From: a virus
Virus record (IMG/VR): IMGVR_UViG_3300045135_000865
Coordinates: 1 to 25,888 of that record
Length of the DNA: 25,888 nucleotides
Strand: one strand, 5' to 3'
Positions 791-22,871 of this stretch are shown in pieces. Position numbers and translations under genes: made by a program. A model generated the notes under the pieces. The model was not told the origin of the DNA, searched no databases, and saw only the letters and a program-made list of their open reading frames with translations. Within the stretch, counting starts at the first letter, position 1. Every line of letters starts with the position of its first letter.

Positions 791-938
791 AGTTCAGATC
801 GTGGGTGCCTCGGCTAACTCACATCAGCCTACAAAGAAGAAAACCTCACAGTCTAAGAGGATTGCTTCAATGAAACTTGGATCTATGAATAAGCATAAAC
901 GTAGATCTACCAAACCTTATAGGGGACAAGGTAAATGA
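783..938 (+). CDS. Short basic protein (51 aa), unknown function
   Basis: A 51-residue frame from ATG 783 to TGA 936-938, too short for many gene callers but well supported. A GGAG at 771-774 lies 8 bases before the ATG, the start overlaps the DUF1289 stop, and the stop overlaps the next start as ATGA. The protein is very basic, beginning MAKVQIVGAS, with a Lys/Ser-rich middle and ending MNKHKRRSTKPYRGQGK. No helix-turn-helix or metal motif is seen. From general familiarity, similar short K/R-rich proteins ending in an NKHKRR...YRGQG tail occur next to nuclease genes in other marine phages. A nucleic-acid-binding role is inferred from charge alone. Confidence 0.75.
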   Translation: MAKVQIVGASANSHQPTKKKTSQSKRIASMKLGSMNKHKRRSTKPYRGQGK

Positions 939-7337: not shown

Positions 7338-10300
7338 TTAAATAATACCACCAAGTAGACCTTTATTACTTGTACCAAACAAGAATCTAAACATCAGTGA
7401 AGTAGAGGCAGCATCTTCTTCTGCTGCAAGCTGTGTTCTAACTGATTCTAGTTCTTTATCTGCAAGAACAATCTGCAAAGCTCTGTCCATTGCTGACTCA
7501 CTAGAAGTAAATGCAAAGCTCATGTTATCACGTTCACGTTGCCAGATTTCATCTAAGTTTTTAGAGGTCAAAGCATTGATAGTCTTTGCAAAGTCCATGT
7601 TACTTTCGTTCTGTGCAGCATTGTTCAGTGTAGCAATATTCTGTCTCCACTGAGCATTTGCCTGTGCTACGACAAGACCATTCTGAGCATTGAACATGTC
7701 CCTTTGGTTTTGTACTTCTGCATTAAACTGTCTCAAAGCATTCACAGTATTTACGTTGAACTGATCCATAGCATTTGCTTGAGATGCATTGAACTGACCT
7801 ACGTTTGCAGTTAGATTTGCAAAGAACTGGTCTGTCTGGTTCTCACTCGTAGCATTAAACTGTTTAGCAGCATTCTCTGCAGCTTGGTCAGTAAGCAGTG
7901 CTTGAATGTTCTGCTGAGATTTAAACAACTCTGTCTGCTGCTCGTTAGACAAATTAGCTAAATCCATTTGCAAAAAGTTTTGTGCATTTACTACAGCAGC
8001 TTGTTGACGGTTATTTAGGTTAGCTATATCTAGCTGCGACAATGCAGCAGCCTCTGCCATAATTACAGCTTGCTTGTTGCTTAGGTTTTGCAACTCCATT
8101 GTATTAGCTGCACGAGAGTTCTCAAGAGCAACCTGCTGTTCAGCAGTAAAGTTCATGTTGGCAATCTCAGAGACTTTAGCTGCATTCATAACCTTAGCTT
8201 GGAATGCTTGATCAAACTCCATTCCCAAGAACTTAGATCTTTGCTCTGCCTTAAACAAAGCCATTTGCTGCTTGTTACCAGCATCAATCTGAGCAATAGG
8301 TAGTGCAGCTTCCATAGCAGCTTGAATAACTGCTTGACCTGCAAGAGACGAAGCACCGAGGCCTCTAGCTGCAAGCATGGCTGTAGCTTTACGCATAGAA
8401 CCAGCAGCCCATGCAGGTGTATCACCACCTTCAAACTGTTGCATAAGCCCTGCTAGTTCGTCTTGAACAGAGGCAGCAGCTACTTCACCAGTACCAAATG
8501 CTGCATCTACTTGAGCTTGATCTACACCAGTTCCTTGGATAACTTCTCCATTTGGACCTGTCTGTAGTGTACGGGTAGGTAGTTCTCCACCTGCAACTTC
8601 TTGTACAGTCTTTGCTTGACCTTCAGCACCTTGTAAGTCAGATACCATAGTAGTGTCTGAGGTTTGACCTGTTACATCTTTTGTAACTGTGCCAGTTTGT
8701 GCTGTAGTTCCTTCAGTTTCTTTTTTAACATCTGCAGCTATGGTCTCAGGAGTCACAGTAGATGTTTTTGCAGTTACAGGCATTCCTACTTGAGAAACAG
8801 TACCTACGGTAGAAGCTTCAGCCATATTTGCTAGGTCAGTAGTCTTACCTGCATTTTGACCAATAAAGTCTGCTTCATCAGTCTGTATTTTATTTACTGC
8901 ACCCTGAACAGGTTGCATAGTTTGGGTAACAAGATTTTTCTGCATCTCTTGAAAGTCTTCAAGACTTAGTCCTGTAGTACCGTCCTGTGCACCTGGTCTT
9001 ACTCTTGCCATACCAGACATTGCTTGTTGGTACTTACCCATACGAGCTGCAGCAGCAGGATTAGCAGCTAGGAAGTTAGTAAGCTGATCTGCTGGGCCTT
9101 GGAATCCTAAGAACTTTCTAGCAAGCTGTACATCACCACCTTCTGCCATAGCTATTATACCACCTTGTGCAGCAGCTTTGCTAAATCCTGGAGGTACATA
9201 CGTTAAAGGCTTACCAGAGGCATCCTCAGTTACAGTCACTGACTGACCAAACTGGTTTGTGTACTGAGCCTGACCACCAAAACCTGCTTGAGATTGTGAG
9301 GTAAGGTTAGCCATATTAGTACCAGTGTAGTTATCTCTTACAGTAACTTGATCTGGTACAGCAGATAATCCTGCAGTTTGTACTGGTTGCTGGAAGGTAC
9401 CCGTAATAGCAGCTTGTTCGTATGTGTTTGTACCTGTACCACCTAAATTAGTAGTGTCTGTTCCAGTACCATTTTGATAAGTAGTCGTAGTTCCTGAATC
9501 AGTATTGTAGGTAGTTTCATCAACATCATAGGTAGTTGTACTAGTTCCAGTATCAGTTGTTGTGTCCGTTCCTGTACCTGTGCCTGTAGTACCTGTACCT
9601 GTTTGACCACCGCCACCAGTAATAGTTTGATCTACAACTTTTGTTTCCTTAATCTCTGGCATTTTAAAGCCAGCAAGAAAGTCTACATTAAGAAGATCTT
9701 GATAATCATCCCACCAAGGATTATAAACTTCATCATATGCTTTTAGGTATACACTATACTTTTCTTGCATAGCAGTAGGCATAGCTGCTTTAAGTATATC
9801 TCCTTGAATACCAAAATTCCTAATGCGACCAAAACCACTACCATTTCTTAAGTTCCAGTCGTTGTTGTTAGGTTGTACAGAAGTAATTAAATTTCCATTT
9901 GCTTTAGAATAAAGTTTTAATACATCTTGACCCTGAATTTGTTCATACTGTACGTCATAACCACCATACATTTGCTCTGTAGCTATGGATGCAGCAGCTT
10001 CAAGTCTTCCTGCATCAATTTCATTACCCCCTGGAGTCTTTGCAGCCTCCATAATAATATCCCAGTTACGAGTTTCATAGTTAGAACCTACCACTCCATA
10101 CAGAAGTTCACTAGCTTTAGTTGATATTGGTTGCCAGTAGTCAGAAGGTTTGTCGTATAAAGACTCAACACTCTCACCTGCAAGAGCCTCCATCATTTCA
10201 CGCATGTTAGGCTTACGAGGCTTACCTGCTTTTACAGAGGCCACATAAGAATCTATGTAACCATCATTAACCCAAGTAGGGATACCAACACCATCTATAG

Positions 10301-10661
10301 TAGCTTTATAGGTTCTTTCTTCTGGCATCGACCAAGTGCCATTTCCGTTAGGATTAACTTCAGGATCACGTTGAGGGGGTATATTTGCCCTAGCTTCAAA
10401 GGCATTAGCTAAAAGACGAGCATCATTAGCAGCACTTAAAGGATTCTTTACAGTAGTATTAGCAGTAGTACCATCAGCCCATGTAATAGTCCAGTTACCT
10501 GATCCCCCAGATATAGTATAGTTATCTGGATCAGCAGGAATATTACCCTCAGATGTAACTCTATCTAGATCATCTTGAATATAAGAAGGTAGATTACCCT
10601 GTTCGTCATAGAACTTTTCATCACCCTCTGGGATAGGCGTATTTGTGTTTTGCTCTGCCAT
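7338..10661 (-). CDS. Large repetitive virion protein, helical C-terminus (1107 aa)
   Basis: 1107 residues from ATG 10661. The N-terminal third is globular and Trp/Tyr-rich. Residues about 345-415 are a Thr/Gly low-complexity linker dominated by TGTG, TTT and TNT units. A QGGIIAMAEGG glycine motif follows near residue 500. The last 400 residues are a long Ala/Gln/Asn-rich helical array with repeated heptad-like units such as NLNNRQQAAV, NLSNEQQTEL and QFNA. No enzyme motif is seen. Proteins of this type occur with internal virion proteins in marine podoviruses, so a role in the ejection apparatus or capsid core is likely. The sugar module ends 11 bases upstream, so translation may continue from the hldD message. 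No paralogue is present in the window. Confidence 0.65.
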   Translation of the reverse strand: MAEQNTNTPIPEGDEKFYDEQGNLPSYIQDDLDRVTSEGNIPADPDNYTISGGSGNWTITWADGTTANTTVKNPLSAANDARLLANAFEARANIPPQRDPEVNPNGNGTWSMPEERTYKATIDGVGIPTWVNDGYIDSYVASVKAGKPRKPNMREMMEALAGESVESLYDKPSDYWQPISTKASELLYGVVGSNYETRNWDIIMEAAKTPGGNEIDAGRLEAAASIATEQMYGGYDVQYEQIQGQDVLKLYSKANGNLITSVQPNNNDWNLRNGSGFGRIRNFGIQGDILKAAMPTAMQEKYSVYLKAYDEVYNPWWDDYQDLLNVDFLAGFKMPEIKETKVVDQTITGGGGQTGTGTTGTGTGTDTTTDTGTSTTTYDVDETTYNTDSGTTTTYQNGTGTDTTNLGGTGTNTYEQAAITGTFQQPVQTAGLSAVPDQVTVRDNYTGTNMANLTSQSQAGFGGQAQYTNQFGQSVTVTEDASGKPLTYVPPGFSKAAAQGGIIAMAEGGDVQLARKFLGFQGPADQLTNFLAANPAAAARMGKYQQAMSGMARVRPGAQDGTTGLSLEDFQEMQKNLVTQTMQPVQGAVNKIQTDEADFIGQNAGKTTDLANMAEASTVGTVSQVGMPVTAKTSTVTPETIAADVKKETEGTTAQTGTVTKDVTGQTSDTTMVSDLQGAEGQAKTVQEVAGGELPTRTLQTGPNGEVIQGTGVDQAQVDAAFGTGEVAAASVQDELAGLMQQFEGGDTPAWAAGSMRKATAMLAARGLGASSLAGQAVIQAAMEAALPIAQIDAGNKQQMALFKAEQRSKFLGMEFDQAFQAKVMNAAKVSEIANMNFTAEQQVALENSRAANTMELQNLSNKQAVIMAEAAALSQLDIANLNNRQQAAVVNAQNFLQMDLANLSNEQQTELFKSQQNIQALLTDQAAENAAKQFNATSENQTDQFFANLTANVGQFNASQANAMDQFNVNTVNALRQFNAEVQNQRDMFNAQNGLVVAQANAQWRQNIATLNNAAQNESNMDFAKTINALTSKNLDEIWQRERDNMSFAFTSSESAMDRALQIVLADKELESVRTQLAAEEDAASTSLMFRFLFGTSNKGLLGGII
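9415..9626 (-). repeat. Thr/Gly low-complexity coding repeat
   Basis: A stretch of short imperfect ACA/GGT/ACT codon repeats inside the 1107-residue gene. It encodes a Thr/Gly-rich linker (TGTGTTGTGTGTD and similar) between the N-terminal globular part and the helical C-terminal part. Confidence 0.7.
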
Positions 10662-10672
10662 TCTACTTTACC

Positions 10673-11443
10673 TTAAACTGAAAGAGTCTCTCTAAATTTT
10701 GTTGTGTCTGCTTTAGTAAACTCTTGGTAATTACCTTTTAGATTATCTGGAAAATCAATAAACTCAATAGAAGCACCAGTTTTGTTAGAAACATCTAAAG
10801 CTACATCATAAAAGCTTTGTGTAGTTCCTGTTCCAAAATTCCATATCCCTGATTCTTCTATGTTAAAAAACTTTTGGTGATCCATCACAACTTTACCAAC
10901 ATGGATAAAATCTCTTACAAACTTTTCTGATCCTTTGAAGAGTTTGATCTTACCTGTTGTTTTAGCTTGCTCCATAAACTTTGTCTGTGGGCTTGCTTGG
11001 TTTCCTTTGTGTTCCTCTTGGGGACCGTGTACGTTGAAGTATCTAAATATGTGTGTAGTAATAGGAGCATTTCTCAACTCTACATACTTTTCAAACAGTG
11101 CTTTGCTACGAGCATAGTGGTTCTGAGGATCAAGAGGTGATGTTTCTTTGAAGTCTGACTTTAGTCCGTACACCGAGGCACTAGAAGCAAACTGAAACTT
11201 AACGTTGTGTTTTATACACTCCTCGTACAACTTGATACTAAACTCTATATTTTGTCTGTATATACGACTGATATTTGTTTCAGTAGTAGAGCTAATAGCT
11301 CCTAAGTGTATTACCCAGTCTAAACCCTTTACTTTAGGAAACGACATACCCCATTCGTTTTTAATCACTTCGTGGTGTGGAGATAGAGCATTGACCATAT
11401 TCTTGCCAATAAACCCATTGCTGCCAGTAACTAGTATTTTCAT
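10673..11443 (-). CDS. hldD: ADP-L-glycero-D-manno-heptose 6-epimerase-like (HldD)
   Basis: 256-residue short-chain dehydrogenase/epimerase. The NAD(P)-binding loop is TGSNGFIG (G7, G10, G13), the catalytic segment is SSASVYG, and YARSK gives Y110 and K114. Matches specific to HldD rather than generic sugar epimerases are GAISSTTE, RYFNVHGPQEEHKG (K146 corresponds to the E. coli catalytic K178), KLFKGSEKFVRDF, GIWNFGTG and FPDNLKGNYQEFTKADT. HldD converts ADP-D-glycero- to ADP-L-glycero-D-manno-heptose, the last step of the LPS-core heptose pathway. It is about 50 residues shorter than E. coli HldD, mainly in the segment after the nucleotide loop and at the C-terminus, so activity is likely but substrate range is unproven. 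The start overlaps the cupin stop as ATGA. Confidence 0.85.
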   Translation of the reverse strand: MKILVTGSNGFIGKNMVNALSPHHEVIKNEWGMSFPKVKGLDWVIHLGAISSTTETNISRIYRQNIEFSIKLYEECIKHNVKFQFASSASVYGLKSDFKETSPLDPQNHYARSKALFEKYVELRNAPITTHIFRYFNVHGPQEEHKGNQASPQTKFMEQAKTTGKIKLFKGSEKFVRDFIHVGKVVMDHQKFFNIEESGIWNFGTGTTQSFYDVALDVSNKTGASIEFIDFPDNLKGNYQEFTKADTTKFRETLSV

Positions 11444-11796
11444 TTCTGGCTATCTCCCCGACCTACACGATAGTTATCCTCTACCGAATCAGGAGTAGAT
11501 ACTTCTATTACTGTGCCTTCCGTTTCACAAATGATTTGATGCGGGACCAAAGGCTCGTTACGCCACGTATCGCCAGCTGTAAGAGTCTTTTCATGAGTGC
11601 TTGCATCTTTTGTATCAATATAGATAACTTTAAATTTTCCCTTAAGGACATACCAAGTCTCATCTTTCTCTTTGTGAAAGTGCATAGAAAACTTAGCACC
11701 TTCGTTAAAATGTAAAAACTTACCACAATATTTGTCGTTGGTTGCCCATATTAGTTCTGACCCCCAACCCTTTTTAACATGTCCATTAAGCCGCAT
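11440..11796 (-). CDS. Single-domain cupin (sugar-module protein)
   Basis: 118 residues with a clear cupin motif 1: H39-F-H41-x4-E46-x6-G53. Motif 2 is GDTWRNEPLVPH, with H86. These residues would bind one metal ion. The fold is the cupin_2 type also seen as a C-terminal domain of type II mannose-6-phosphate isomerases and in stand-alone sugar-modifying proteins. It overlaps the kinase upstream by 11 bases and the epimerase downstream by 4, so it is part of the heptose unit. Plausible roles are sugar isomerisation or epimerisation. It could in principle substitute for the missing sedoheptulose-7-phosphate isomerase, but nothing in the sequence shows this. Confidence 0.75.
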   Translation of the reverse strand: MRLNGHVKKGWGSELIWATNDKYCGKFLHFNEGAKFSMHFHKEKDETWYVLKGKFKVIYIDTKDASTHEKTLTAGDTWRNEPLVPHQIICETEGTVIEVSTPDSVEDNYRVGRGDSQK

Positions 11797-12541
11797 TTTG
11801 TATCTCCTCTAAACGAGGTGCATACACACCGACATGTTGAACAGTTACCGCAGCAGCTTTCATAGCAAACTTAATAGCTTTTTCTATACTGTCTGTTTGT
11901 AGGTAGTTGTACACCAGAGCTGCTAAAAAGGTGTCTCCTGCTCCACAAACATCATGTGCATCTACTTTTGGTGGTAAGTATAGCTTATCCTTGTAGACGA
12001 CTTTATCTGACCCAAACGTGACAATCATGTTGTCTGCATCAGATGTTCTATTTTCGTACTCGTACTGATTTATTTTTACAAAAGCTTTGTTGAACAGTTT
12101 TAAGTCTTGCTTTTTTGTATCAATAAATACTGGACCGTTGTAGCTCTCTAAGATGCTTTGGATAGCAAAGGTAGAGACATAACCTTTATTGTAATCAGAG
12201 ATAACGACAGCATCGTAATCACTAAAGTTGTGTAGGCGATGCTCATCATGTTCTTCTTCTATTAGAGGTACATCAACTCTTACGATCTGTTGACCTGTCT
12301 TTGAGTCTATGTAACGTTTCTTTGTTTCTTTGTATAGAATATCATAGTGACAATCTACACCAAGTGACTGAAAGTTTTGTAGTACATTACCAGCCATTCC
12401 TAATTTACGAATAGTGGTATCCCAATCTAACACTGGTACGGGTGCCTCTGGGTTTAGCCTGTTTACGACACCATAACAGTACTCGTCATAGCATCCGTCT
12501 CCTATCAACAAAATCTTGGAGGGTTTTTGTTGTTGATTCAT
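11786..12541 (-). CDS. rfaE1: D-glycero-beta-D-manno-heptose-7-phosphate kinase-like (PfkB family)
   Basis: 251 residues from ATG 12541 (MNQQQKPSKILLIGDG). The start is set by GAGAGGA six bases upstream. A TTG five codons earlier is part of that ribosome site and is rejected. Features shared with the HldE kinase domain are GDGCYDEYCYG followed by NRLNPEAPVPVL, then GMAGNV, DYNKGY, DTKKQD and the PfkB signature DVCGAGDTF with catalytic base D203. The reaction is phosphorylation of heptose-7-phosphate to the 1,7-bisphosphate. It is shorter than the usual kinase domain of about 318 residues. In E. coli this domain is fused in front of the adenylyltransferase. Here the two are separate genes in the reverse order, overlapping by 56 bases in different frames. 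Confidence 0.85.
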   Translation of the reverse strand: MNQQQKPSKILLIGDGCYDEYCYGVVNRLNPEAPVPVLDWDTTIRKLGMAGNVLQNFQSLGVDCHYDILYKETKKRYIDSKTGQQIVRVDVPLIEEEHDEHRLHNFSDYDAVVISDYNKGYVSTFAIQSILESYNGPVFIDTKKQDLKLFNKAFVKINQYEYENRTSDADNMIVTFGSDKVVYKDKLYLPPKVDAHDVCGAGDTFLAALVYNYLQTDSIEKAIKFAMKAAAVTVQHVGVYAPRLEEIQNAA

Positions 12542-12896
12542 TATTGGTCCTCTCAAAGAATACTACCTCTTTACAGTATTCCTCACCAACAATCTTCTTC
12601 CCCCTCCAATCGGAACCTTTCACCATAACGTCAGGTTCATACCTTTTAATAATAGCTGCCAAGTCTTCATCCGAATCAAACGACACAACAGCATTAACAG
12701 GCTTCAACATTGACATCAGATGCTTCCGATTTTTCAGATTGTTAAAAGGTCTATCTGCTCCCTTGTTATACCTTATTTTGTTGTCTGTGTCAATAGCTAC
12801 GAGTAAATAGCCCCCTAACATACCTGCAAAATCAATAAGATCAAGGTGTCCAGAGTGTATTACATCAAAGGCTCCATTGACAAATACTTTCTTCAT
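12486..12896 (-). CDS. rfaE2: D-glycero-beta-D-manno-heptose-1-phosphate adenylyltransferase-like
   Basis: 136 residues, about the size of the C-terminal HldE domain. The nucleotidyltransferase signature GAFDVIHSGH (residues 8-17) is present, followed by LLVAIDTD, the RPFNNLKNR loop, VVSFDSDED, DVMVKGSDWRG and a C-terminal STTKTLQDF like the STTNII of E. coli HldE. It would join ATP and heptose-1-phosphate to give ADP-D-glycero-D-manno-heptose. Related cytidylyltransferases (TagD/GCT) share the fold, but the downstream match and gene context favour heptose. An AGGA eight bases before ATG 12896 is its ribosome site. It is divergent from gmhB with only 29 bases between starts. Confidence 0.85.
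   Translation of the reverse strand: MKKVFVNGAFDVIHSGHLDLIDFAGMLGGYLLVAIDTDNKIRYNKGADRPFNNLKNRKHLMSMLKPVNAVVSFDSDEDLAAIIKRYEPDVMVKGSDWRGKKIVGEEYCKEVVFFERTNNESTTKTLQDFVDRRRML
12548..12554 (-). promoter_or_regulatory. Ribosome binding site deciding the rfaE1 start
   Basis: GAGAGGA on the minus strand, six bases before ATG 12541, lying inside the end of the rfaE2 coding region. Confidence 0.7.
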
Positions 12897-12905
12897 GTGT
12901 ATTAT
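12877..12905 (+). promoter_or_regulatory. Sigma70-type promoter for gmhB
   Basis: On the plus strand, a perfect -35 TTGACA (12877-12882), a 17-base spacer and -10 TATTAT (12900-12905). Transcription should begin near 12912, just before the AAGGAG at 12915-12920 and ATG 12926. The promoter overlaps the start of the divergent rfaE2 gene. This is a host-polymerase-type promoter inside the late region. Confidence 0.75.
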
Positions 12906-12925
12906 CCTGTTAAAAAGGAGTTGTT

Positions 12926-13573
12926 ATGTCCAGATTTAAACATATCATAGAACAAGACCCACAACAAGTTCAACAACAAAACCTACCTGCTGATTGGCCT
13001 AAAGTGTTTCCTAAATCTATTGTTGGGCTAGACCGTGATGGTGTTATCAACGTAGATAGAGGTCACTACCTTACTGATCCTGATGACTGGGAGCCTATCC
13101 CTGGTTCACTAGAAGCTATCCGTATGCTTAGGTTGAAAGGCTACAAAGTAGTTATCCTGACTAACCAAGGCGGTATTACAAAGAAAGAGCAGACACATGC
13201 ACAAGTGGATGCCATTCATCAACGTATGATGGAAGTGTTTGGCAATGCAGGTATCTACTCCATTGATGGTTTATTTTATTCTGAGTCCTCACTAAAAGAA
13301 GACTACTATGCTAAACCTAATATTGGAATGTTTCATCGTACTGAGAAAGAAATATTCAACAACAAAATTAGATTTAAAGATAAGGGGTTCTACGTAGGTG
13401 ATAAGATGACAGATCTTAAAGCTGCAGAACGTATTGGTGCTACCCCAATCTTAGTACGTACTGGTCATGGGGTAGCTACTGAAAAAGATCTTCAAAAGTT
13501 CTCTAAGGAGAAACTAAGAAAGAAGACTAAGGTGTTTGAGAACCTTCTTCAGTTTGCTCAGAAGCTACCGTAA
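12926..13573 (+). CDS. gmhB: D-glycero-D-manno-heptose-1,7-bisphosphate 7-phosphatase-like (HAD family)
   Basis: 215 residues, the only plus-strand gene in the sugar module. HAD motifs are all present: nucleophile D36 and acid D38 in GLDRDGVINVD, T79 in ILTNQGG, K130 in KPNIGM, and D159/D163 in GDKMTD. The order and spacing match GmhB, which removes the 7-phosphate before nucleotide activation. There is a 30-residue N-terminal extension rich in Gln. The loop before KPNIGM, which in typical GmhB holds a Cys/His zinc site, has no cysteine here (YSESSLKEDYYA). A histidinol-phosphatase-like substrate cannot be excluded, but the neighbours favour heptose. Strong AAGGAG and its own promoter precede it. 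Its 3' end overlaps the carbamoyltransferase end by 47 bases on the opposite strand. Confidence 0.85.
   Translation: MSRFKHIIEQDPQQVQQQNLPADWPKVFPKSIVGLDRDGVINVDRGHYLTDPDDWEPIPGSLEAIRMLRLKGYKVVILTNQGGITKKEQTHAQVDAIHQRMMEVFGNAGIYSIDGLFYSESSLKEDYYAKPNIGMFHRTEKEIFNNKIRFKDKGFYVGDKMTDLKAAERIGATPILVRTGHGVATEKDLQKFSKEKLRKKTKVFENLLQFAQKLP
12944..12973 (-). promoter_or_regulatory. Possible sigma70-type promoter for rfaE2-rfaE1-cupin-hldD
   Basis: On the minus strand, TTGAAC (12973-12968) and TATGAT (12949-12944) are separated by 18 bases. The -10 matches consensus at 5 of 6 positions and the -35 at 4 of 6. It would start about 40 bases before the rfaE2 ATG and lies inside the 5' end of gmhB. Moderate support only. 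Confidence 0.4.
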
Positions 13574-15230
13574 CAAGCTTCCCTACCTCTGGTAGATACA
13601 TGTAGTCAATGTCACAGTTCTTCATGGTGTGTAGTGCATCATGTAGTGTCTCTACAAGTGGTTCACCTGCTAGGTTGAAGCTTGTATTGAACAGGATTGG
13701 TACACCAGTGATCTTACGGAACTCTTCAATCAGATCATAGTAGGCTTCATTCTGCTCTCTGGTTACAGTCTGAATGCGACATGTACCATCTACGTGTGTG
13801 ATAGCAGGAACTTCACCATGCTTGTCAGTCTTGAAGTCCATTGCATACATCATGAATGGTGACTCTTCCATTCCATGTGTCTCAAACCATTCCTCAAAGT
13901 ATTCCTTGAGCATTGATCCTGCAAAGGGTCTAAACCATTCACGGCCTTTGACCTTGTTTACTGTGTCCTTACCATCAGGATCTGTGGGATCGTACAGGAT
14001 AGAACGATTACCCAGTGCTCTTGGCCCTGCCTCTGATCTACCTTGGAACAACGTAACAATGTTCCTATCTGCAATCAGCTTGGCTACATCAGCAGGGGTA
14101 ACATCTTTTGTGTCGTATCCCTCTAGATTGTAGTTTTCTTCACGTTCAGGACCAAGATACAGTGTGCTTAGTGGACGTTTTGTTTTATCTTCTACATTTT
14201 GATAATAGATAAGCTGTGCTAGTCCAATAGCTGTACCACCATCATGTGAGATAGGATCAACGTAGATGTTAAGATCAGGAAAACGTTTCTTGTAGTAGTA
14301 GTTAGCTACACAGTTAAGTCCATAGCCCCCTGCAATCACAATATTCTTGTGTCCTGTCTTGTCTACAGCTTTCTCAATCAAATCCCCAACAAGAGTTTGT
14401 GTTCTATCTTGAACTGCCCAAGCTAAGTCTTTTGCAGCATCTGTTACCTTACTAGGGTCTTTGTGCCAAGCACGAGGATCTTCTTTTAACTCTAGGAAAG
14501 GATGTCTGTTGTGGTCTACGTGTGCACCTGCAGGGTAGTTAGGTAAGAAGAGGTTTTTATTACCCCTACCTTCTATAAATAGTTCAGGAATCTCTGGGTT
14601 TTCTTTTCCATAAGGAGCAAGACCCATAGTTTTTCCTGCCTCAATAAAACCAAAACCAAGGTACTCTGACACAGCTTCGTATGCTTTTACTAATGTAATA
14701 GCACTGTCCATTTCCAAGTCTTCTTTCTTAATACGATGTGTATTATAGTTACCACCATAAGAAGTAAAGACTTGTTTTATACCCTCTTCATAGTCACAAT
14801 TATAAATGGTTTCAGTTTCAAAACCTGGGTTAGTAGAATCTTCAGATACTTGAATATTTCTTTTAGTTCCAGAACCATCTACAATAACAGCAGCAGCTTT
14901 ATCAAAGCCTGAGTTATAAAATGCTGCAGCAGCATGGCCTATGTGGTGGTTAGCACCTACATTAATTATTTGTATGTTTGGATTAAACTTACGAATTAAT
15001 GCAGAAAAAGGGTCTTCACTAGTCCAAGTTAATTTAGGAAACTCTTGACTAGTTCCACCAAGAACTAATACATCTATACGATACTTAAGTGCTTCCAACA
15101 TTCCCCTAAAAGGGTTTCCATCGTATTTGTAACGAGACAGACGTTCTTCTTCGATGTAAAATTTAATTTCACCATCTACTAAAAAGGCAGCAGAACCATT
15201 GTGTCCTGGGTTAATAGCTAAGATATTCAT
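13527..15230 (-). CDS. O-carbamoyltransferase, NodU/CmcH/TobZ family
   Basis: 567 residues, full length for the family. The N-terminal Kae1-like domain starts NILAINPGHNGSAAF and continues with IEEERLSRYK. The metal-binding NHHIGHAAAAFY is at about residue 94, with H95, H96 and H99. The C-terminal carbamoyltransferase domain includes GRSEAGPRALGNRS (from residue 397) and NTSFN near 513, followed by GEPLV. The family uses carbamoyl phosphate and ATP to carbamoylate hydroxyls on sugars or antibiotics. With a glycosyltransferase one base upstream and heptose genes next to it, the likely acceptor is a sugar on host LPS or on the virion. Similar genes are known in marine phages. The acceptor cannot be read from sequence. 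Confidence 0.9.
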   Translation of the reverse strand: MNILAINPGHNGSAAFLVDGEIKFYIEEERLSRYKYDGNPFRGMLEALKYRIDVLVLGGTSQEFPKLTWTSEDPFSALIRKFNPNIQIINVGANHHIGHAAAAFYNSGFDKAAAVIVDGSGTKRNIQVSEDSTNPGFETETIYNCDYEEGIKQVFTSYGGNYNTHRIKKEDLEMDSAITLVKAYEAVSEYLGFGFIEAGKTMGLAPYGKENPEIPELFIEGRGNKNLFLPNYPAGAHVDHNRHPFLELKEDPRAWHKDPSKVTDAAKDLAWAVQDRTQTLVGDLIEKAVDKTGHKNIVIAGGYGLNCVANYYYKKRFPDLNIYVDPISHDGGTAIGLAQLIYYQNVEDKTKRPLSTLYLGPEREENYNLEGYDTKDVTPADVAKLIADRNIVTLFQGRSEAGPRALGNRSILYDPTDPDGKDTVNKVKGREWFRPFAGSMLKEYFEEWFETHGMEESPFMMYAMDFKTDKHGEVPAITHVDGTCRIQTVTREQNEAYYDLIEEFRKITGVPILFNTSFNLAGEPLVETLHDALHTMKNCDIDYMYLPEVGKLVTVASEQTEEGSQTP

Positions 15231-15231
15231 A

Positions 15232-16158
15232 TTACTTCACCTTCTTTTCAATATCTTTTACGATACTGTTATACATTACGTTAATCTCTTCATCACTAAA
15301 GTCCATGATTGTATCATTTGCTCTGTCAGCTAGATGACTTTCAAGATTTGAGATACGAATAGGTGAGTACTTCTTGGCATCCTTCTTTTCAATAATGTTA
15401 AAGTAATCTGGGTAAGTTGTGTTAATTGCAAAAGTAGAACCTACAATAACTGTACCAGGTTTTCCTAATGCTCTTGCCATATGTTGACCAACAGAGTCTA
15501 CACCAATAAAGTAATCTGCTGCGTCAATAAAAGGAACCCACATCCTAATATCTGCAGTAGGTTTTAAGGTGTAGGTATCCTCTTGCATATGAAACTGTTG
15601 CTCTGCCATTAAAACAAGGTTAAATTTAGCAGAAAGTTTTTTAACCAGTTTTAGATATGACTGAGGATCTAAAGAACGAGATGACTCATCAACAAGAACA
15701 CCTGTCTGATGTCTTTGAATTGAACGACCAAATGGCTGCAGGATTATTGTTTTTTGTTTTTGCTGTTGATTCTTAGCATCTAGAATCATACCTGCTGCAT
15801 TTACTTCTTCCATCTTAGCTGTTTTTAAAACAGGTGCACCAAGATCAGAATGATCGTCTGTATTGTTGATTAGGTAATCAAAGGCTTCTGCTAAAGATTT
15901 TTCTTGTTTGTAGTACCCTGGAACTCTGTAAGGCTCAGGGGATATAACTTCTTCAGCTTTAAGAACTATTTGTTCAAAGATACCTTTTTGTTCTGGATTA
16001 AAGGTTTTGTCTTGTAGTTCTGGAATACCCCAGTAAAGTGTATCCCATCCATTTAGTAATACTGCAAAGTCATCATGTTTCTTTGCATATTTGATAAGAG
16101 CAGGTATAGCTGCAATAGCACGACCTGCTCCACCATCTAACATAAACAGTTTTTTCAC
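15232..16158 (-). CDS. GT9-like glycosyltransferase (heptosyltransferase-type)
   Basis: 308 residues from GTG 16158 (MKKLFMLDGG); an internal ATG five codons later is an alternative. The N-terminus LDGGAGRAIAAIPALIKYAK corresponds to the Gly-rich first strand/loop of GT-B heptosyltransferases. The donor-binding segment is FIGVDSVGQHMARALGKPG (around 217-235), close to the GT9 pattern with D221 and H226. The middle is divergent, so family membership is likely but the acceptor is unknown. It is first in its transcription unit, directly after a strong promoter, and one base before the carbamoyltransferase. ADP-heptose from the neighbouring genes is the natural donor to suggest. The acceptor could be LPS core or a virion protein. 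Confidence 0.7.
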   Translation of the reverse strand: MKKLFMLDGGAGRAIAAIPALIKYAKKHDDFAVLLNGWDTLYWGIPELQDKTFNPEQKGIFEQIVLKAEEVISPEPYRVPGYYKQEKSLAEAFDYLINNTDDHSDLGAPVLKTAKMEEVNAAGMILDAKNQQQKQKTIILQPFGRSIQRHQTGVLVDESSRSLDPQSYLKLVKKLSAKFNLVLMAEQQFHMQEDTYTLKPTADIRMWVPFIDAADYFIGVDSVGQHMARALGKPGTVIVGSTFAINTTYPDYFNIIEKKDAKKYSPIRISNLESHLADRANDTIMDFSDEEINVMYNSIVKDIEKKVK

Positions 16159-16211: not shown

Positions 16212-16240
16212 AGTATATCATAAAACTAAGTTAGTATCAA
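16212..16240 (-). promoter_or_regulatory. Sigma70-type promoter for GT9-carbamoyltransferase
   Basis: On the minus strand, -35 TTGATA (16240-16235), exactly 17 bases, then -10 TATACT (16217-16212). Both boxes match consensus at 5 of 6 positions. It lies in the longest intergenic gap of the window (16159-16236), with the -35 overlapping the stop codon of the chaperone-like gene. Expected start of transcription is near 16205, leaving a leader of about 45 bases. Confidence 0.75.
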
Positions 16241-16533
16241 GAAGGTTTAGTAGGCCACTGATCTAGTTCTAAATCAGGCCAGTCTTCGTGATTAGTTATA
16301 TCTCTTAGCTGAGTTCTATATGCAGCCCACAAAGCTTTATCTTCGTCACTCAAAGGACTGTCTGGACTCTGTGTCCAATCAGTCTCAAGTAAAAGATTAA
16401 ATCTTTTTTCTTTCTGTTGTATAGAATAACTAGCTATTCTTTTTGCTTCTTCTGCTGCCAACTCTTCTTCAGTTGGATCAGGTTCATCTCTATACCTAAC
16501 ACCATTAGGACTAAAAATCTGAAGTTTTGCCAT
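16237..16533 (-). CDS. Tail fibre assembly chaperone-like protein (98 aa)
   Basis: 98 residues from ATG 16533, with AAGGG eight bases upstream. It has the pattern of small phage tail assembly chaperones: a variable N-terminus, a helix rich in Glu/Ala (residues 21-43), then RFNLLLETDWTQSPDSPLSD and WAAYRTQLRDI (residues 44-79), ending with a WPTKP motif. Such proteins usually sit just after fibre genes and help the fibre fold or attach. It contains no cysteine, in contrast to the two genes before it. It closes the fibre group; a new promoter begins within its stop codon. Confidence 0.75.
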   Translation of the reverse strand: MAKLQIFSPNGVRYRDEPDPTEEELAAEEAKRIASYSIQQKEKRFNLLLETDWTQSPDSPLSDEDKALWAAYRTQLRDITNHEDWPDLELDQWPTKPS

Positions 16534-16544
16534 TTTTTAACCCT

Positions 16545-17252
16545 TTAATTTTCTACGTTTTCTGGCTCATCAAGTAAACCCCATATTGAAAAACAACCCC
16601 CACCAGAATGATTATTTAAGTTTTGATTAACCATAAGCTGAAAACCACCAAAGTTTTCCCAGTGAAGTTTAGCTCCTGCATGAGGGATACAAGGACAAAT
16701 GTAACCCTTTCTAGCCTGTGACCAGTTGTGATATCCTGGTTGCCACCCTGCACAGAATTGCCAACCAATGTAGCTGCACTGTCTAGAACAAGGAACTGTT
16801 CCATTCCACCCAGGGTGTTTGTAGAAAGAGCCTACCCCACCAAATTGTCCACACATACAATAGTTACTTTGGCCTATCTCACAATGACAACAGGTATTCA
16901 TATAATGACAGCTTATACCAATAACTCCATTACCAGAACATAGACAATTACCTAAATCATCTAGTATTCTCATGCAATAGTAGTTCCAACTAGCAGCACC
17001 GTGATGGTAAAAAAAGTAACATATGTGTTTAAAACATTTAAAAGGGTATTCAAAATTAGTACAAAATCCTGTCCCTTGCCAGTCAAGACATTTAGCTATT
17101 GTAACCCACTGACCAGAAGGTGCAAAAGTACCCTCACCTTGTGGGTATTCTGATTTATAACAAGGAGAACAAACTGTCGTAAAACAGGCTGTTGAGGGAA
17201 GGGCCGCAGCCCCTCCTGATGATTGTCCTGCTAATTTTACATATCTAGACAT
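16545..17252 (-). CDS. Cysteine-rich tail-region protein (235 aa), no family recognised
   Basis: 235 residues from ATG 17252, overlapping the upstream stop as TAATG. By my count 22 cysteines (about 9%), with many aromatic residues and glycines. Cysteine pairs include TCCHC (around 120-125), CMCG and CPC. The protein opens MSRYVKLAGQSSGGAAALPS, a segment like the start of fibre or tip proteins. No signal peptide, membrane segment or recognised domain is seen. Its place between a fibre-type gene and a fibre chaperone points to a tail tip or receptor-binding role. Abundant cysteines fit a disulphide- or metal-stabilised external protein, but that is inference. Codons are ordinary TGT/TGC, with no sign of frameshift. 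Confidence 0.65.
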   Translation of the reverse strand: MSRYVKLAGQSSGGAAALPSTACFTTVCSPCYKSEYPQGEGTFAPSGQWVTIAKCLDWQGTGFCTNFEYPFKCFKHICYFFYHHGAASWNYYCMRILDDLGNCLCSGNGVIGISCHYMNTCCHCEIGQSNYCMCGQFGGVGSFYKHPGWNGTVPCSRQCSYIGWQFCAGWQPGYHNWSQARKGYICPCIPHAGAKLHWENFGGFQLMVNQNLNNHSGGGCFSIWGLLDEPENVEN

Positions 17253-19201
17253 TAGTCGTCATACCCCCATATTTGAACTGCTACAGGAGTGGGACTATTG
17301 TTTGATACATAAAGTTTATCTGAGTTAGATAAAACGATACCTGTTCTTTCTAATCTGTTCGCAGATGCTTTGTACTCTAGTGTCCCTTCATTACCAACAC
17401 AATTATCAGAGTTAAAATAGTGGTTAGTATTTTTAAATATATCTGAACCTGTATTTTTAATAACAGTAGAGCATACAGCATTTCCAGAACCACTTGAAGT
17501 TAATTGAATAGTTTCAGTCTCTACTTTTTCCCAAGTAATGAGGTCTGGGGATCTGTAATGGAACATACAACCATTCCAACCACCTTCATCAGGAATAGAA
17601 CCAAAAGTGAAGCACTGCCACCAAATACCAAAGCAGCACTCTGCAACTAGTTGGGGTTGAGTAACAGATTCATAAGCACTTGTTTTTTCAGACCAAGCAG
17701 TAGGAGTTCCTGAAATACATTTAATCATACCTGCTGCAATCCAGTCAGCCATTGTTTTACACTGGTAACAACAGTTCTGATAAGTACTGCCAATAATACA
17801 TCCTGCCGTTGGAGCATACGCAGTATCAATACTGTAAATTCCATCTGTAGGGCTGTTTGAATTGCCAGATAGGGATGATCCTAATATCTCAAAATAGTTA
17901 CAGTCAGTGTATGGGTTATACCATAACCATTTAACCATAGGGGAACCCATACCTATAATAGATGGATAAAAAATACAACAAGCATCAGGCTGAGATGAAG
18001 GGGTACAGAATCTATACATACCATACATTCTGCAAGCCTGGATGGTATTTTCACTACAATCGTAAGATTTATCGTAGAGGATAACTTCTGTAACATATTC
18101 TGGATTAAACCCAGTAAAAAATGCTACGTCACAACCTGCCATCACGTACTTATTAGATATGTGTGTAGATTTCTGCCAAAGATCACAACAGCAACATCCG
18201 CAACAACCACAACATTCCTTCCATTTATTTCTATCACACTCTTGTGACAGGTAATTTGACCTACAATCTTGCCCACCATAAGTGGTTTTTTGGCCAGTAT
18301 TTAGATTTGTTGTAAACAAAGCATAGAAAGGCTGACACTGCGATCCTGCATACACTGGACAACTACTACCACCCAAATAAAACAATGGGGCATGGTCAGA
18401 CCAAAGGTCTTGGCTTTGCCAAGGAAGGTCACAGAAACACGTATAGTCATAGTAACAAGAAGTAAAGCAACAAGCACCACAGAAGTAAAATCTTCTTTTA
18501 CATTCTCTGCTTCCACAAAAAGCTATACAGCAACAAAGATCTTCTTGACCATACCTAATACCCATAGTACATTGAGTATAATTATTACTTAGGTTTTTTT
18601 CAGCACGAGGTGTCCAATAAGCTGTTTTAGACTGTCTTTCCCAAACCTCTCCTGAACCAGTAATAAAAGATGGTATATTTACTTGTTTTTGGAAAATAAG
18701 GCTATCTACATAGATAGCTGCACACACACAACACTGTACTCCTGCACCAAACGAACTGGTAGAAGCAGGTTGAAGTGACCCCCAACAAGTTCCTGCTCCT
18801 GTAATACCACACCAAACTTGTGTACGAATACAACACTGACTTCTTGTATAAGCTACATTATCTGTAGCATCACACCAGTTAAAGTGTCTGTCTTTAAAAC
18901 AGTTTGCACCTGTTTGAGTACACTTACATTCTGTTGACTCAGTATAAGCATATCCACAAAGACTGCTACCTACGTCTGATATGTATGATGTTCTTGCTAC
19001 AGGAGCATCTAATGTACTTATTGTAGTAGTACATTGAATACATCCATCTGTAGAAGAGTACTTTAAACTAATACAAGAATTTTTATCTGCATCTAGTGCT
19101 TGAGCATGAATTGTTATTGAGGCAGGATTACCACTAGAGTTTGTATAAATTTTACAAGCCTCTTGTGCTCCTATTACTGCCTCTGCTAAAGATCCTGACA
19201 T
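17252..19201 (-). CDS. Cysteine-rich tail appendage protein (649 aa), no family recognised
   Basis: 649 residues from ATG 19201, with GAGG ten bases upstream. By my count about 58 cysteines (about 9%), and roughly ten vicinal CC groups. The densest is ECCGCCGCCCCD at about residues 328-339. Cysteines run through the whole chain except roughly the last 60 residues (ASANRLERTGIVLSNSDKLY), which look like an ordinary beta-rich virion domain. The middle is rich in Tyr, Trp and Ser/Thr, and segments such as GCMFHYRSPDLITWEKVE resemble glycosidase-like beta-propeller blades; this is only an impression. It sits between the GNVT-repeat fibre and a second Cys-rich protein, so an external fibre or receptor-binding part is likely. 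No catalytic motif is recognised. Confidence 0.65.
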   Translation of the reverse strand: MSGSLAEAVIGAQEACKIYTNSSGNPASITIHAQALDADKNSCISLKYSSTDGCIQCTTTISTLDAPVARTSYISDVGSSLCGYAYTESTECKCTQTGANCFKDRHFNWCDATDNVAYTRSQCCIRTQVWCGITGAGTCWGSLQPASTSSFGAGVQCCVCAAIYVDSLIFQKQVNIPSFITGSGEVWERQSKTAYWTPRAEKNLSNNYTQCTMGIRYGQEDLCCCIAFCGSRECKRRFYFCGACCFTSCYYDYTCFCDLPWQSQDLWSDHAPLFYLGGSSCPVYAGSQCQPFYALFTTNLNTGQKTTYGGQDCRSNYLSQECDRNKWKECCGCCGCCCCDLWQKSTHISNKYVMAGCDVAFFTGFNPEYVTEVILYDKSYDCSENTIQACRMYGMYRFCTPSSQPDACCIFYPSIIGMGSPMVKWLWYNPYTDCNYFEILGSSLSGNSNSPTDGIYSIDTAYAPTAGCIIGSTYQNCCYQCKTMADWIAAGMIKCISGTPTAWSEKTSAYESVTQPQLVAECCFGIWWQCFTFGSIPDEGGWNGCMFHYRSPDLITWEKVETETIQLTSSGSGNAVCSTVIKNTGSDIFKNTNHYFNSDNCVGNEGTLEYKASANRLERTGIVLSNSDKLYVSNNSPTPVAVQIWGYDD

Positions 19202-19217
19202 TTTGTAATTACCTCTT

Positions 19218-22200
19218 TTAAATTGCTGTAGCTAAGTAGTAAGCTTTTCCAGTGCTGATACCTGCACTTACTCCTGTCAGGGCAGAGCCATCCCCAACAA
19301 AACATGTTGTTGCACAAACGATTGGTGCCTGAATATTACCTGTAAAGGTTTGGCCTGAAGTAGAAGCTTTAGTTCCTAGACATGTTACGATGTTACCTGT
19401 GCAAGTTGTAGAAGCTTTACCAGATAAACATGTAGCTAGTCCGTCAACATTAGCTACTGTATGATTGTGACTATCATCTGCTACTGTTGCAGTAATTGAG
19501 ATGTTAGACGTACCATCAAAAGATGCTGAACCAGAAACGTCACCAGATAGTGCTATGTTTCTGGCAGTTTGTAGTGCAGTTGCTGTAGCTGCATTACCTG
19601 TTGTAGATCCTGAAGATCCAGTTACGTTGCCTGTGACATTACCTGTCACATTACCAGTTACGTTACCAGTAAGGTTACCTGTCACATCTCCTGTAACAGG
19701 AGCACATACCCTTGCAAAGGTTACTGTGTCAGATGTACCTACTGCCTGTCCAATGGCAATATCGTTAGCATTAACTGTAACACCAGTACCTGCACCAATG
19801 TTAAAGGTTGTACCATCTAGTGTCAAGCCTGAACCTGCACTATAAACAGCAGTCTCAGCTACGACAGTAAAGCTGATAGATGTTGTACCAAATGTAATTG
19901 TACCTGATGTGTTCATCACGTACAGTTCACCTGCACCTGTGTCACCTTCTTTTACAAAGAATGCATCACCTTCACCTAGTGCATCTTGATCTGAAGGGCC
20001 ATAAGTATCTGCATCTGTAGCACGAGTAAGCTCCCAGTTAGTAGAAGCAGAACCAGTGTTAGTTACTGTATAAATACCATTTTCAAAACCATTACTTTGG
20101 TTGTAAACAAGTACACGATCATTCAGGCTAAGAGTTACCCCATCAATAACTAAAGCAGCTTGTGTACCTGCGTTGGTAAGTGTAGCATCTACTCCTGGAG
20201 TACCTGCAGCCACCGCAGCAGCACTAGTAGCATAAGTAGCATTAAGAGCACTTGGTGTTTCTACACGTACTGGTGTGTGGTAGTGAATACCTGCAGCAGC
20301 AATCGTATCAACGTACTCTTTTGTTGCAAGATGACCTGCACAAGTAGGATATTCACTAGTTCCTACACAAACAGATCCAAAGCATACATTGCTAGATGTA
20401 CCTACATCCTGTCCAATAGCTATTGTACCATTTGTGTAGGTTACGCCTGTCCCACCTGATAGATGACTATTAACTCTAGCTGTTGTAAAGTATTGATTTG
20501 TACCTTCAGTTAAATCATCTGTTGTAAAGTTACCTAGTGTAGAGACACAACCTGTAACGTTACCTGTCAGGTTACCTGTAAATGCACCATACAAGTTTGT
20601 AGCACAAACACTTGTTGCATTGTAGATGCAGTTTGAGTTAGCATCTAATGCTCCACCGAGTTGTGGTGTAGTGTCTTCAGCAAGTTGAGTAAGAGCATCA
20701 CCAAGGGTAAATGCTGCAGAGGACCAAATAGAGCCTGTGTAAACTTTTAAGGCATTGTCTGTAGTATTCCAGTATAATGCACCAGTTAGTAGGGCATTAC
20801 CATCGTTGTCTACTGATGGGTCTGATGATTTGTTACCAAGGTATCTGTCATCAAATGCGTCATAAGAAGCAGCAGCATTTGTCTCTGAAGTTGCAGCAGC
20901 AGTAGCTGAGTTACTTGCATTGGTTGCACTTGTAGCCGCAGCAGTTTGACTTGCTAGTGCACATGCAGCAGAAGTACATGCTGCAGTAGCTGATTGCAAG
21001 ATACCATCTACGTAACATTTATTTGTGAGGTCACATGCATTTGTTGGTGTGTAGCAAGAAATAATAGGACAAGTAGTCTGAACATTTCCTGTAAATGTGC
21101 CACCTGATAAAGGCATTGCTGTAGCAACACAAGTGTCTGTGTAGTTCTTAGTGCTTGCATCTTGAGCAGCAGTTGGATCACCTAGACCTGTAATCTTAGA
21201 TGTACCCATTGCAATGGCACCAGACATTGTACCACCAGTCAAGTTTAGTTTAAGAGCATCCTGAGTATCTACGTAACCTTTACGAGTCAGTGTGTCGTCT
21301 GTAGCAGGTGTAGCTGTAGATGTAGCCTTATTAGCACCAAGGGTAATATCCCCTGTCATAGTGCCACCTGCAGTACCTAGTTTAGTACCTAGACAAGTAG
21401 TAAGAGTAGTGTAAACATTAGCATCATCGTTGATAGCTGCAGCTAATTCGTTAAGAGTATCAAGAGCACCTGGAGCACCACCAATCAAGTTAGTAATCTG
21501 TGTGTCTACGTACCCTTTTGTACTTGCATCTCCATCAGCAGTTGGTGTTCCAAGAGATGTAATCTTAGCAGAACCCATATCAAGTCCTGCAGTTCCTGTC
21601 ATGTTAATATCACAGAAAGTAGAAGTACCTGTAGATGTTACATTACCAGTTAAATTACCTGTAACGTTTCCTGTAACATTACCTGTGACATTACCAGTCA
21701 GATCACCAGTAACATCTCCTGTTAAGTTACCTGTAACATTACCTGTTAGATTCCCTGTGACATCTCCTGTAACGTCACCAGTAATATTACCTGTAACGTT
21801 GCCAGTTACGTTACCTGCTACATTACCTGTAATGTCTCCTACGAAACAAGTATTAGCTGTAACTGTAGTACCTGTTATAAGACCTGGTGTAGTACCGCCA
21901 ATAGTAGCACCATCAATAGTACCCCCATTGACATCGACTGAAGCAAAAGTACCCTGTCCTGTCGTACTAACTGTAGTAAAGCTACCAGCAGCAGCACTGG
22001 AAGCACCGATAACAGTGCCATCAATATTACCTGCATTAATATCTACTGTGGTTAAAGTTGCTGTGCCTGTAGCAGATAAGTTTGGAACTGTTACTGTGTT
22101 TCCAAAGGCAGAAGTACCTGTTACTGCCAATGTACCTGCTAGTGTGGTGTTACCTGTAACTCCTGCAGTACCACCAACAGTAAGATTACCACTAGCTCCT

Positions 22201-22871
22201 AGAGTTGTAAACTCACCAGAAGCAGCAGTCGTACCACCAATAACTGTGTTGTCGATTGTACCTGCATTAATATCTGCTGTGTCAGCTACAAGGCTGTCAA
22301 TATTTGCCGTACCATCAATGTATAGGTCTTGCCACTCTGCAGTGGAAGAACCTAAATCGTATGTACCATCTGCAGAAGGGATAAGGTCTGAGGCAACATC
22401 AGCATTTACTGTAACAGTATCACTATTGTCACTACCAAGAGTAGTATTCCCATTAACGGTAAGGTTACCCGTAATAGTAGCATTTTCATGCACCGCCAGA
22501 GTGTCGATATAACCCACACCATCAATGTAAAGATCTTTAAACTCAGCAGCCGCAGAACCCAGATCAATATCTTCATCAGTGACAGGAACAATAGCTCCAT
22601 CTTGTATCCTTATCTGTTCTACTGCAGCACTGCCAACATTTGTAAAGAAGTTGATCCTGTTGTTTGCAGTATCAATTACTACTTTAGTAAAGTTGTTTGT
22701 GTCTGAGATCGTTGGGATGTAAGCACCTTCAGCAGAAGATCCATCGTGCTTGTGTCCTGTTGCCTGATTAAAGGCTGCTAGTATCTGCTGAAATTCGTTG
22801 TTGACTGGTTCAGCTTTAATAACCTGACCAGAAACAATATCCGCAGCACTCTGTCTTGTATAACCTGCCAT
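19218..22871 (-). CDS. Long repeat-containing tail fibre (1217 aa)
   Basis: 1217 residues from ATG 22871, abutting the upstream stop. The N-terminal 60 residues (MAGYTRQSAADIVSGQVIKA, then GHKHDGSSAEG) are a typical virion-attachment start. Two DLYIDG units (around 110-125 and 180-190) and three IDGTVIG-like units follow. Residues 345-412 are 17 tandem GNVT-type tetrapeptides, and a second block of six lies near the C-terminus. Several YVDT-type units (KGYVDT, KEYVDT, KCYVDG) alternate with Ala/Ser-rich coiled segments. The fold is probably beta-solenoid or triple-stranded fibre, from its composition. The first 341 residues have no cysteine; the rest have about 22. It would project from the tail and bind the host. 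Confidence 0.85.
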   Translation of the reverse strand: MAGYTRQSAADIVSGQVIKAEPVNNEFQQILAAFNQATGHKHDGSSAEGAYIPTISDTNNFTKVVIDTANNRINFFTNVGSAAVEQIRIQDGAIVPVTDEDIDLGSAAAEFKDLYIDGVGYIDTLAVHENATITGNLTVNGNTTLGSDNSDTVTVNADVASDLIPSADGTYDLGSSTAEWQDLYIDGTANIDSLVADTADINAGTIDNTVIGGTTAASGEFTTLGASGNLTVGGTAGVTGNTTLAGTLAVTGTSAFGNTVTVPNLSATGTATLTTVDINAGNIDGTVIGASSAAAGSFTTVSTTGQGTFASVDVNGGTIDGATIGGTTPGLITGTTVTANTCFVGDITGNVAGNVTGNVTGNITGDVTGDVTGNLTGNVTGNLTGDVTGDLTGNVTGNVTGNVTGNLTGNVTSTGTSTFCDINMTGTAGLDMGSAKITSLGTPTADGDASTKGYVDTQITNLIGGAPGALDTLNELAAAINDDANVYTTLTTCLGTKLGTAGGTMTGDITLGANKATSTATPATDDTLTRKGYVDTQDALKLNLTGGTMSGAIAMGTSKITGLGDPTAAQDASTKNYTDTCVATAMPLSGGTFTGNVQTTCPIISCYTPTNACDLTNKCYVDGILQSATAACTSAACALASQTAAATSATNASNSATAAATSETNAAASYDAFDDRYLGNKSSDPSVDNDGNALLTGALYWNTTDNALKVYTGSIWSSAAFTLGDALTQLAEDTTPQLGGALDANSNCIYNATSVCATNLYGAFTGNLTGNVTGCVSTLGNFTTDDLTEGTNQYFTTARVNSHLSGGTGVTYTNGTIAIGQDVGTSSNVCFGSVCVGTSEYPTCAGHLATKEYVDTIAAAGIHYHTPVRVETPSALNATYATSAAAVAAGTPGVDATLTNAGTQAALVIDGVTLSLNDRVLVYNQSNGFENGIYTVTNTGSASTNWELTRATDADTYGPSDQDALGEGDAFFVKEGDTGAGELYVMNTSGTITFGTTSISFTVVAETAVYSAGSGLTLDGTTFNIGAGTGVTVNANDIAIGQAVGTSDTVTFARVCAPVTGDVTGNLTGNVTGNVTGNVTGNVTGSSGSTTGNAATATALQTARNIALSGDVSGSASFDGTSNISITATVADDSHNHTVANVDGLATCLSGKASTTCTGNIVTCLGTKASTSGQTFTGNIQAPIVCATTCFVGDGSALTGVSAGISTGKAYYLATAI
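19620..19691 (-). repeat. Six tandem 12-bp (GNVT) repeats
   Basis: Six imperfect 12-base units encoding GDVT/GNLT/GNVT near the fibre C-terminus. Units differ mostly at third codon positions, showing selection on the peptide. Confidence 0.85.
21636..21839 (-). repeat. Seventeen tandem 12-bp (GNVT) repeats
   Basis: 204 bases made of 17 imperfect 12-base units that encode G-(N/D)-(V/L/I)-(T/A) tetrapeptides. Synonymous differences between units suggest old duplication kept by selection. The antisense frame stays open through the repeat only because of its composition. Confidence 0.9.

Follow-up and report, generated by a model that had tools for sequence, protein, structure and literature searches.

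Why does a phage carry, inside its late structural block, a set of genes for making a nucleotide-activated heptose, how does it manage without the isomerase GmhA, and what is the heptose used for? These questions are raised by a 25,888-base IMG/VR record, IMGVR_UViG_3300045135_000865 (the whole of which is called the window here), a 25.9-kb fragment of a marine phage genome. Its nearest backbone is that of Roseobacter phage CRP-9, which is related to the HMO-2011 group. As of 2024, the reason for which viruses produce manno-heptose donors was described as unsolved (PMC11573728), and in 2010 it was still undecided whether the cyanophage 'lipopolysaccharide (LPS) genes' are functional (PMC3037559). 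The original prediction was that positions 10673-13573 encode a kinase, a phosphatase, an adenylyltransferase and an epimerase covering four of the five steps of the ADP-β-heptose route, with GmhA missing from the window. Both statements are borne out below. The cassette also reaches beyond this region, to a carbamoyltransferase, a GT9-like protein and Cys-rich tail proteins, and these neighbours point to the use of the heptose. The explanation that we favour, by a modest balance of probability, is that this is a phage-encoded tail-heptosylation cassette, by which the phage would heptosylate and carbamoylate its own Cys-rich tail proteins.

Heptose-specific NCBIfam models rank first for all four enzymes. 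The HldD-like ADP-heptose 6-epimerase (10673..11443, minus strand; 256 residues, shortened in its N-terminal half) matches heptose_epim (TIGR02197) with 219 bits, compared with 89 bits for the next functional class, GalE, and its best PDB match is HldD (1eq2, 5.7e-43). The RfaE1/HldE-N-like heptose-7-phosphate kinase, a short form of the PfkB family (11786..12556, minus strand, with the ATG at 12541 as the likely start), has rfaE_dom_I (TIGR02198, 124 bits) as its best match, and the RfaE2/HldE-C-like heptose-1-phosphate adenylyltransferase (12486..12896, minus strand) has rfaE_dom_II (TIGR02199, 102 bits). The GmhB-like HAD phosphatase (12926..13573, plus strand) matches GmhB PRK08942 (133 bits) and GmhB in the PDB (4pnh, 1e-21). 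Only the adenylyltransferase prefers a different enzyme in the PDB, glycerol-3-phosphate cytidylyltransferase (1coz). Catalytic residues were compared by alignment to E. coli K-12 HldD, HldE and GmhB, and we take these residues to have the catalytic roles generally ascribed to them. The epimerase keeps the equivalents of HldD S116, Y140, K144 and K178; the kinase keeps the RLxPEAPVPV and GAGD motifs of HldE; the adenylyltransferase keeps HxGH (as HSGH), KGxD (as KGSDW) and STT, with no arginine at position 5 of the STTR5 motif; and the phosphatase keeps DRDG, TNQ, K and GDK. Activity of all four on heptose phosphates is predicted from this family and active-site evidence.

The four genes had been described as overlapping. 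This is true of the epimerase, kinase and adenylyltransferase genes, which together with a cupin gene run end to end, but not of GmhB, which is on the opposite strand and overlaps none of the other heptose genes; it overlaps the 3' end of the carbamoyltransferase gene (13527-13573). Its inversion within a late operon places it antisense to any transcripts that read through, and dozens of sister loci keep the same arrangement. In the order of transcription, the cassette consists of two Cys-rich proteins (16545..17252, 22 Cys in 235 residues, and 17252..19201, a tail protein with 58 Cys in 649 residues; both are proposed acceptors), a tail fibre assembly chaperone (16237..16533; PF16778, 8.1e-12; phrog_4912), the GT9 heptosyltransferase-like protein (15232..16158; phrog_8954), a NodU/Nol-like O-carbamoyltransferase (13527..15230; PF16861, 7.7e-63; PF02543, 2.6e-21; phrog_1601, 1.6e-155), the inverted GmhB, the adenylyltransferase, the kinase, the cupin (11440..11796) and the epimerase, all except GmhB on the minus strand. 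A tail fibre with 22 Cys and PHROG tail fibre matches (19218..22871, minus strand) lies beside them.

Evidence for the tail proteins as acceptors comes from gene linkage. The two Cys-rich proteins at 16545-19201 contain 9% Cys. After removal of near-duplicates, a Cys-rich gene is found upstream on the same strand in 45 of 53 loci with the GT9 gene, compared with 2 of 47 loci that have the kinase but no GT9. As a control for selection, sister phages were fetched by an unrelated backbone gene (7338-10661) and not by the cassette. Cys-rich tail genes (8.9-12.8% Cys) occur in all nine of the sister phages with the cassette and in none of the 23 without it, where the maximum on that strand is 1.9% Cys. 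The Fisher value of 3.6e-8 for this comparison is inflated by kinship; mapped onto the tree of the backbone gene, the cassette changes state 3-4 times, at least three of these being independent switches, and the Cys-richness follows it in every case. The backbone gene itself encodes a large late protein that has no Pfam or PHROG match and is conserved across the CRP-9-like group, where it serves as a marker.

The single-cell phage AG-345-O18 has a Cys-rich gene at the place equivalent to 16545..17252, and the 649-residue protein of the window aligns with its 758-residue protein at 27% identity. The Cys-rich proteins are hypervariable, a trait shared with receptor-binding proteins, and the 649-residue protein has three phmmer matches including itself. 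One of the Cys-rich neighbours, at 4.9% Cys, is classed as a tail spike by PHROG, and others have the N-termini of virion proteins.

We suggest tentatively, as a possibility that is more doubtful than the cassette function itself, that the cysteines themselves are the acceptor, so that hypervariable adhesins of about 9% Cys would be S-heptosylated and the sugar carbamoylated by the GT9/carbamoyltransferase pair. The suggestion is made because the proportion of Cys follows the presence of GT9 across unrelated phages, and because the number of cysteines has random parity: among 73 non-redundant Cys-rich proteins, with a mean of 9.5% Cys, 38 have an even number. It is made also because five other structural-block proteins of the window (3,020 residues) contain no Cys at all, and because the 22 cysteines of the window fibre have no counterpart in its Cys-free homologue, CRP-9 gp47 (46% identity), where the residues aligned to fibre cysteines are Ser, Asn, Ser, Pro, Thr, Ala and Ala. 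Around the cysteines no sequence motif was found; the only trend is that further Cys, Trp, His and Arg are slightly enriched there.

The assignment of the GT9-like protein comes from its predicted fold. The AlphaFold2 model is confident (pLDDT 95.7), and the top 30 Foldseek matches in the PDB are all GT9 proteins, with the protein heptosyltransferase TibC first, followed by WaaF, 3tov and WaaC; the best TM-score, 0.70, is to 3tov, an unassigned GT9. Only the fold search was informative, as the GT9 profile gave no meaningful match to PDB sequences. The phage protein thus shares its fold with the TibC/AAH autotransporter heptosyltransferases, and we presume that it also shares the ADP-heptose donor and the use of a protein acceptor. 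It differs from them in lacking the iron-site cysteines and sequence similarity in the PDB profile search, and in the acceptor presumed. Elsewhere, the genes that come after GT9-carbamoyltransferase modules encode sulfotransferases, an FkbM methyltransferase, 2-oxoglutarate oxygenases or, in S-SSM7, a tryptophan halogenase, which is consistent with a tailored protein-bound glycan. In S-SSM7 (L424:15040-18648), the tryptophan halogenase, a 2-oxoglutarate-Fe(II) oxygenase and a second carbamoyltransferase are inserted inside the cassette, which suggests further modification of the tail proteins or their glycan.

The remaining gap in the pathway is GmhA. The window shares the kinase, phosphatase, adenylyltransferase and epimerase with the known ADP-heptose pathway (HldE/GmhB/HldD), and differs from it in having no GmhA, in having the kinase and adenylyltransferase as separate short genes, and in the added cupin. 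It had been left open whether GmhA is supplied by the host, lies elsewhere in the phage genome or is replaced by the cupin. We searched 49 phage records with heptose genes in full for SIS_2, the domain of GmhA, and found it in none, including the complete genomes of P-SSM2, S-CAM1 and S-SM2 and the near-complete 55-57-kb genomes of sister phages. The control search was positive in 9 of 14 named genomes, including Synechococcus elongatus. A location elsewhere in the phage is thereby ruled out for the sister and cyanophage genomes. The cyanophage 'phosphoheptose isomerase' (phrog_1238; P-SSM2 gp311 at L003:13746-14090, and L004:12725-13048) was also considered as a GmhA and rejected: it is a mislabelled mini-HAD of about 110 residues with no SIS domain. 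Its motifs are DIDGTI, TxR, K and DD, and its best model is the EcbF/BcbF capsule phosphatase (TIGR01689). AG-345-O18 carries both the mini-HAD and the GmhB-like HAD.

Of the possibilities left, the evidence favours the cupin, which probably carries out the GmhA step as a sedoheptulose-7-phosphate isomerase, judging from its genomic linkage and its sequence relatives. In 86 of 91 loci it is found no more than 4 kb from the kinase; in one of the five exceptions it lies farther away. Conversely, 19 of 80 viral loci fetched by a GmhA profile also have the kinase or adenylyltransferase, and none of these 19 has the cupin. In DPANN archaea (Woesearchaeota, Nanoarchaeota) and a Nomurabacterium, the cupin is the first gene of an operon that continues with epimerase, kinase, (GmhB) and adenylyltransferase, with compact examples at L199, L202, L205, L207, L208, L212, L213, L217, L229 and L230. 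Searches of the whole L199, L202, L205, L207, L208, L212, L228 and L230 genomes, with the proviso that metagenome-assembled genomes (MAGs) are incomplete, found SIS_2 either not at all or only inside proteins of about 610-640 residues, which from their length are probably GlmS; the L213 genome has an additional weak SIS_2 match in a 326-residue frame.

The metal ligands of the cupin (H39, H41, E46 and H86) are invariant in 58 sequences, and the best match of a profile of these sequences among solved structures is the D-lyxose ketol-isomerase 2y0o (2.2e-8); with a single archaeal cupin as the query, 7nzo and 2y0o rank first. The cassette cupin shares with these D-lyxose/D-mannose ketol-isomerases the cupin fold, the HxH..E..H metal site and a YCxK motif, but is shorter, and its substrate is presumed to be a phosphosugar. 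D-Lyxose/D-mannose isomerase interconverts manno and fructo forms, and the GmhA step has the same stereochemistry. The phrog_7851 label of the cupin, 'cysteine dioxygenase', is unsupported, its best relatives being isomerases and generic cupins.

Neither the cassette nor its lack of GmhA is peculiar to this phage. A near-complete heptose pathway within a late structural block had been considered unusual, which is not the case: the same cassette is present in more than 100 IMG/VR loci, with the gene order repeated in dozens, and a close variant in P-SSM2, S-CAM1 and S-SSM7, and the lack of GmhA is the rule. The presence of the heptose pathway in phages such as the P-SSM2-type cyanophages is already known. 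The cyanomyovirus 'LPS' cassette (T4-GC 303-308) has GT9-like, carbamoyltransferase, adenylyltransferase, kinase, HAD, cupin and epimerase genes in nearly the same order, and, as in the window, Cys-rich proteins just upstream. It differs in having the mini-HAD and an inverted epimerase gene, whereas the window has the full GmhB-like HAD and a CRP-9-like backbone. T4-GC 304, 305, 307 and 308 are among the co-occurring cyanophage 'LPS genes' listed with unknown function by Sullivan et al. 2010 (PMC3037559). Papers on roseophages with the same backbone as the window do not mention heptose genes.

The proposed mechanism is then as follows. The cupin would replace GmhA, and the short PfkB kinase would make the 1,7-bisphosphate, from which the 7-phosphate would be removed by the GmhB-like HAD, or by the mini-HAD in cyanophages. 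The adenylyltransferase would make ADP-heptose and the HldD-like enzyme would epimerise it; the four steps after that of the cupin are predicted from the family and active-site evidence. From its fold and linkage, we infer that the GT9 protein transfers the heptose onto the Cys-rich tail fibre/adhesin proteins; we also infer that the sugar receives a carbamoyl group from the NodU-type enzyme. Such decoration would protect the receptor-binding tail or adjust its properties.

Several observations weigh against parts of this scheme. None of the enzymes reaches its curated NCBIfam equivalog cut-off (219/275, 124/345, 102/182 and 133/178 bits for the epimerase, kinase, adenylyltransferase and phosphatase), about 37 residues of the E. 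coli kinase domain have no counterpart in the phage kinase, and the zinc Cys/His loop is absent from the GmhB-like HAD. In the GT9-like family, the catalytic Asp13 of WaaC is an invariant Arg (56 sequences), and the iron-site cysteines of TibC are absent, the window GT9 having no Cys at all; for these two reasons its chemistry may differ. Some GT9 loci have no Cys-rich neighbour, and linkage, on which the choice of acceptor is based, does not prove it. For the cupin, the viral loci L285 and L324 hold it together with GmhA, with only a weak adenylyltransferase match; the L217 and L229 genomes, which carry the cupin operon, also encode a SIS_2 protein of about 200 residues; and the fold search does not discriminate, with isomerases in positions 19, 30 and 46 of a list of generic cupins and quercetinase and oxalate decarboxylase higher.

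These sub-threshold scores, together with the shortened kinase and epimerase and the altered GmhB loop, could mean that the enzymes act on another sugar phosphate and that the product is not ADP-heptose. We regard this as quite improbable: the steps of one known route occur together, HldD K178 and the HldE motifs are present, and the GT9 fold is that of a heptosyltransferase. Viral heptose enzymes are moreover functional according to Tang et al. 2024, to the extent that this work is reported in PMC11461863 and PMC11573728. A rather unlikely alternative, though less so, is that the host provides heptose-7-phosphate by its own GmhA and the cupin does some other job, such as sugar modification or metabolite sensing. 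Cupins are catalytically diverse, the Foldseek result is not specific, and Synechococcus elongatus does have a SIS_2 protein. Against this, viral loci carry the cupin and GmhA in a complementary pattern, archaeal heptose operons include the cupin in genomes that lack a stand-alone SIS_2, and the cupin shares YCxK and the metal ligands with D-lyxose isomerases. In addition, in the family to which a Rhodobacteraceae MAG belongs, only five of 101 genomes have a convincing GmhA-like gene.

The same genomes bear on the proposal made for cyanophage 'LPS genes', that heptose and carbamoyl groups are added to the LPS or capsule of the host during infection, for example as a block to superinfection. 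The LPS heptosyltransferases WaaC and WaaF belong to GT9, and the literature ascribes the cyanophage LPS genes to surface change (PMC9602691). We nevertheless consider the proposal unlikely for this cassette, which lies among the late tail genes and goes together with the Cys-rich tail genes in the sister phages, such genes being rare where heptose genes occur without GT9. If the host of the window is a roseobacter, it would also probably offer no heptose core for extension, because few genomes of the family have convincing ADP-heptose genes. Finally, non-functional passenger or 'stuffer' DNA, an idea brought up for large cyanophage clusters (PMC3037559), is hardly credible here: the frames are intact, the gene order and catalytic residues are conserved across more than 100 cassette loci and unrelated phage groups, and the cassette is present in genomes of about 55 kb with little space for filler. 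Tail heptosylation remains the explanation that we prefer.

A contig of a Rhodobacteraceae MAG (L226, NAT686) carries a cyanophage-type cassette of GT9, carbamoyltransferase, adenylyltransferase, kinase, mini-HAD, cupin and epimerase, and is probably a phage contig binned with the bacterium. The left end of the window (1-1381, plus strand) encodes a DUF1289 protein and the terminal part of a ribonucleotide reductase, which is ordinary for this phage group.

Vibrio and Aeromonas hosts belong to groups that make ADP-heptose. Cultured phages of Vibrio (SBP1, D505) and Aeromonas (HJ05) have a distant GT9 relative, with 26-29% identity. It adjoins a tail or late protein that contains 41 Cys in SBP1 and D505 and 23 in HJ05 (L421:11989-15510, L422:10309-12924 and L423:9478-15494), and no heptose genes are annotated nearby. 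The pair of GT9 and Cys-enriched protein supports the tail-heptosylation reading and would be a convenient minimal system for experiments. Because these phages keep only the GT9, whereas none of the 101 genomes of the Rhodobacteraceae family passes the adenylyltransferase cut-off and five have a convincing GmhA-like gene, it seems that phages supply the biosynthetic module themselves when it is missing from the host.

In the literature searched, which mostly excludes subscription journals, we found no paper on phage tail heptosylation, on Cys-rich cyanophage fibres or on a cupin sedoheptulose-7-phosphate isomerase. Within that literature, the proposed replacement of GmhA by a cupin and the link to Cys-rich tail proteins as putative acceptors appear to be new. 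A commentary states that the phosphatase is absent in viruses (PMC11461863), which the GmhB-like and mini-HAD genes contradict at the level of family. Decoration of Cys-rich tail proteins would give a specific and testable role to sugar genes that have been known in ocean phages for 20 years. If the proposal for the cupin is true, it is a new enzyme common to phages and DPANN archaea, and genomes would have to be scanned differently for heptose pathways. If the adhesins are indeed S-heptosylated, they would represent a viral S-glycosylation system built on a GmhA-free heptose pathway.

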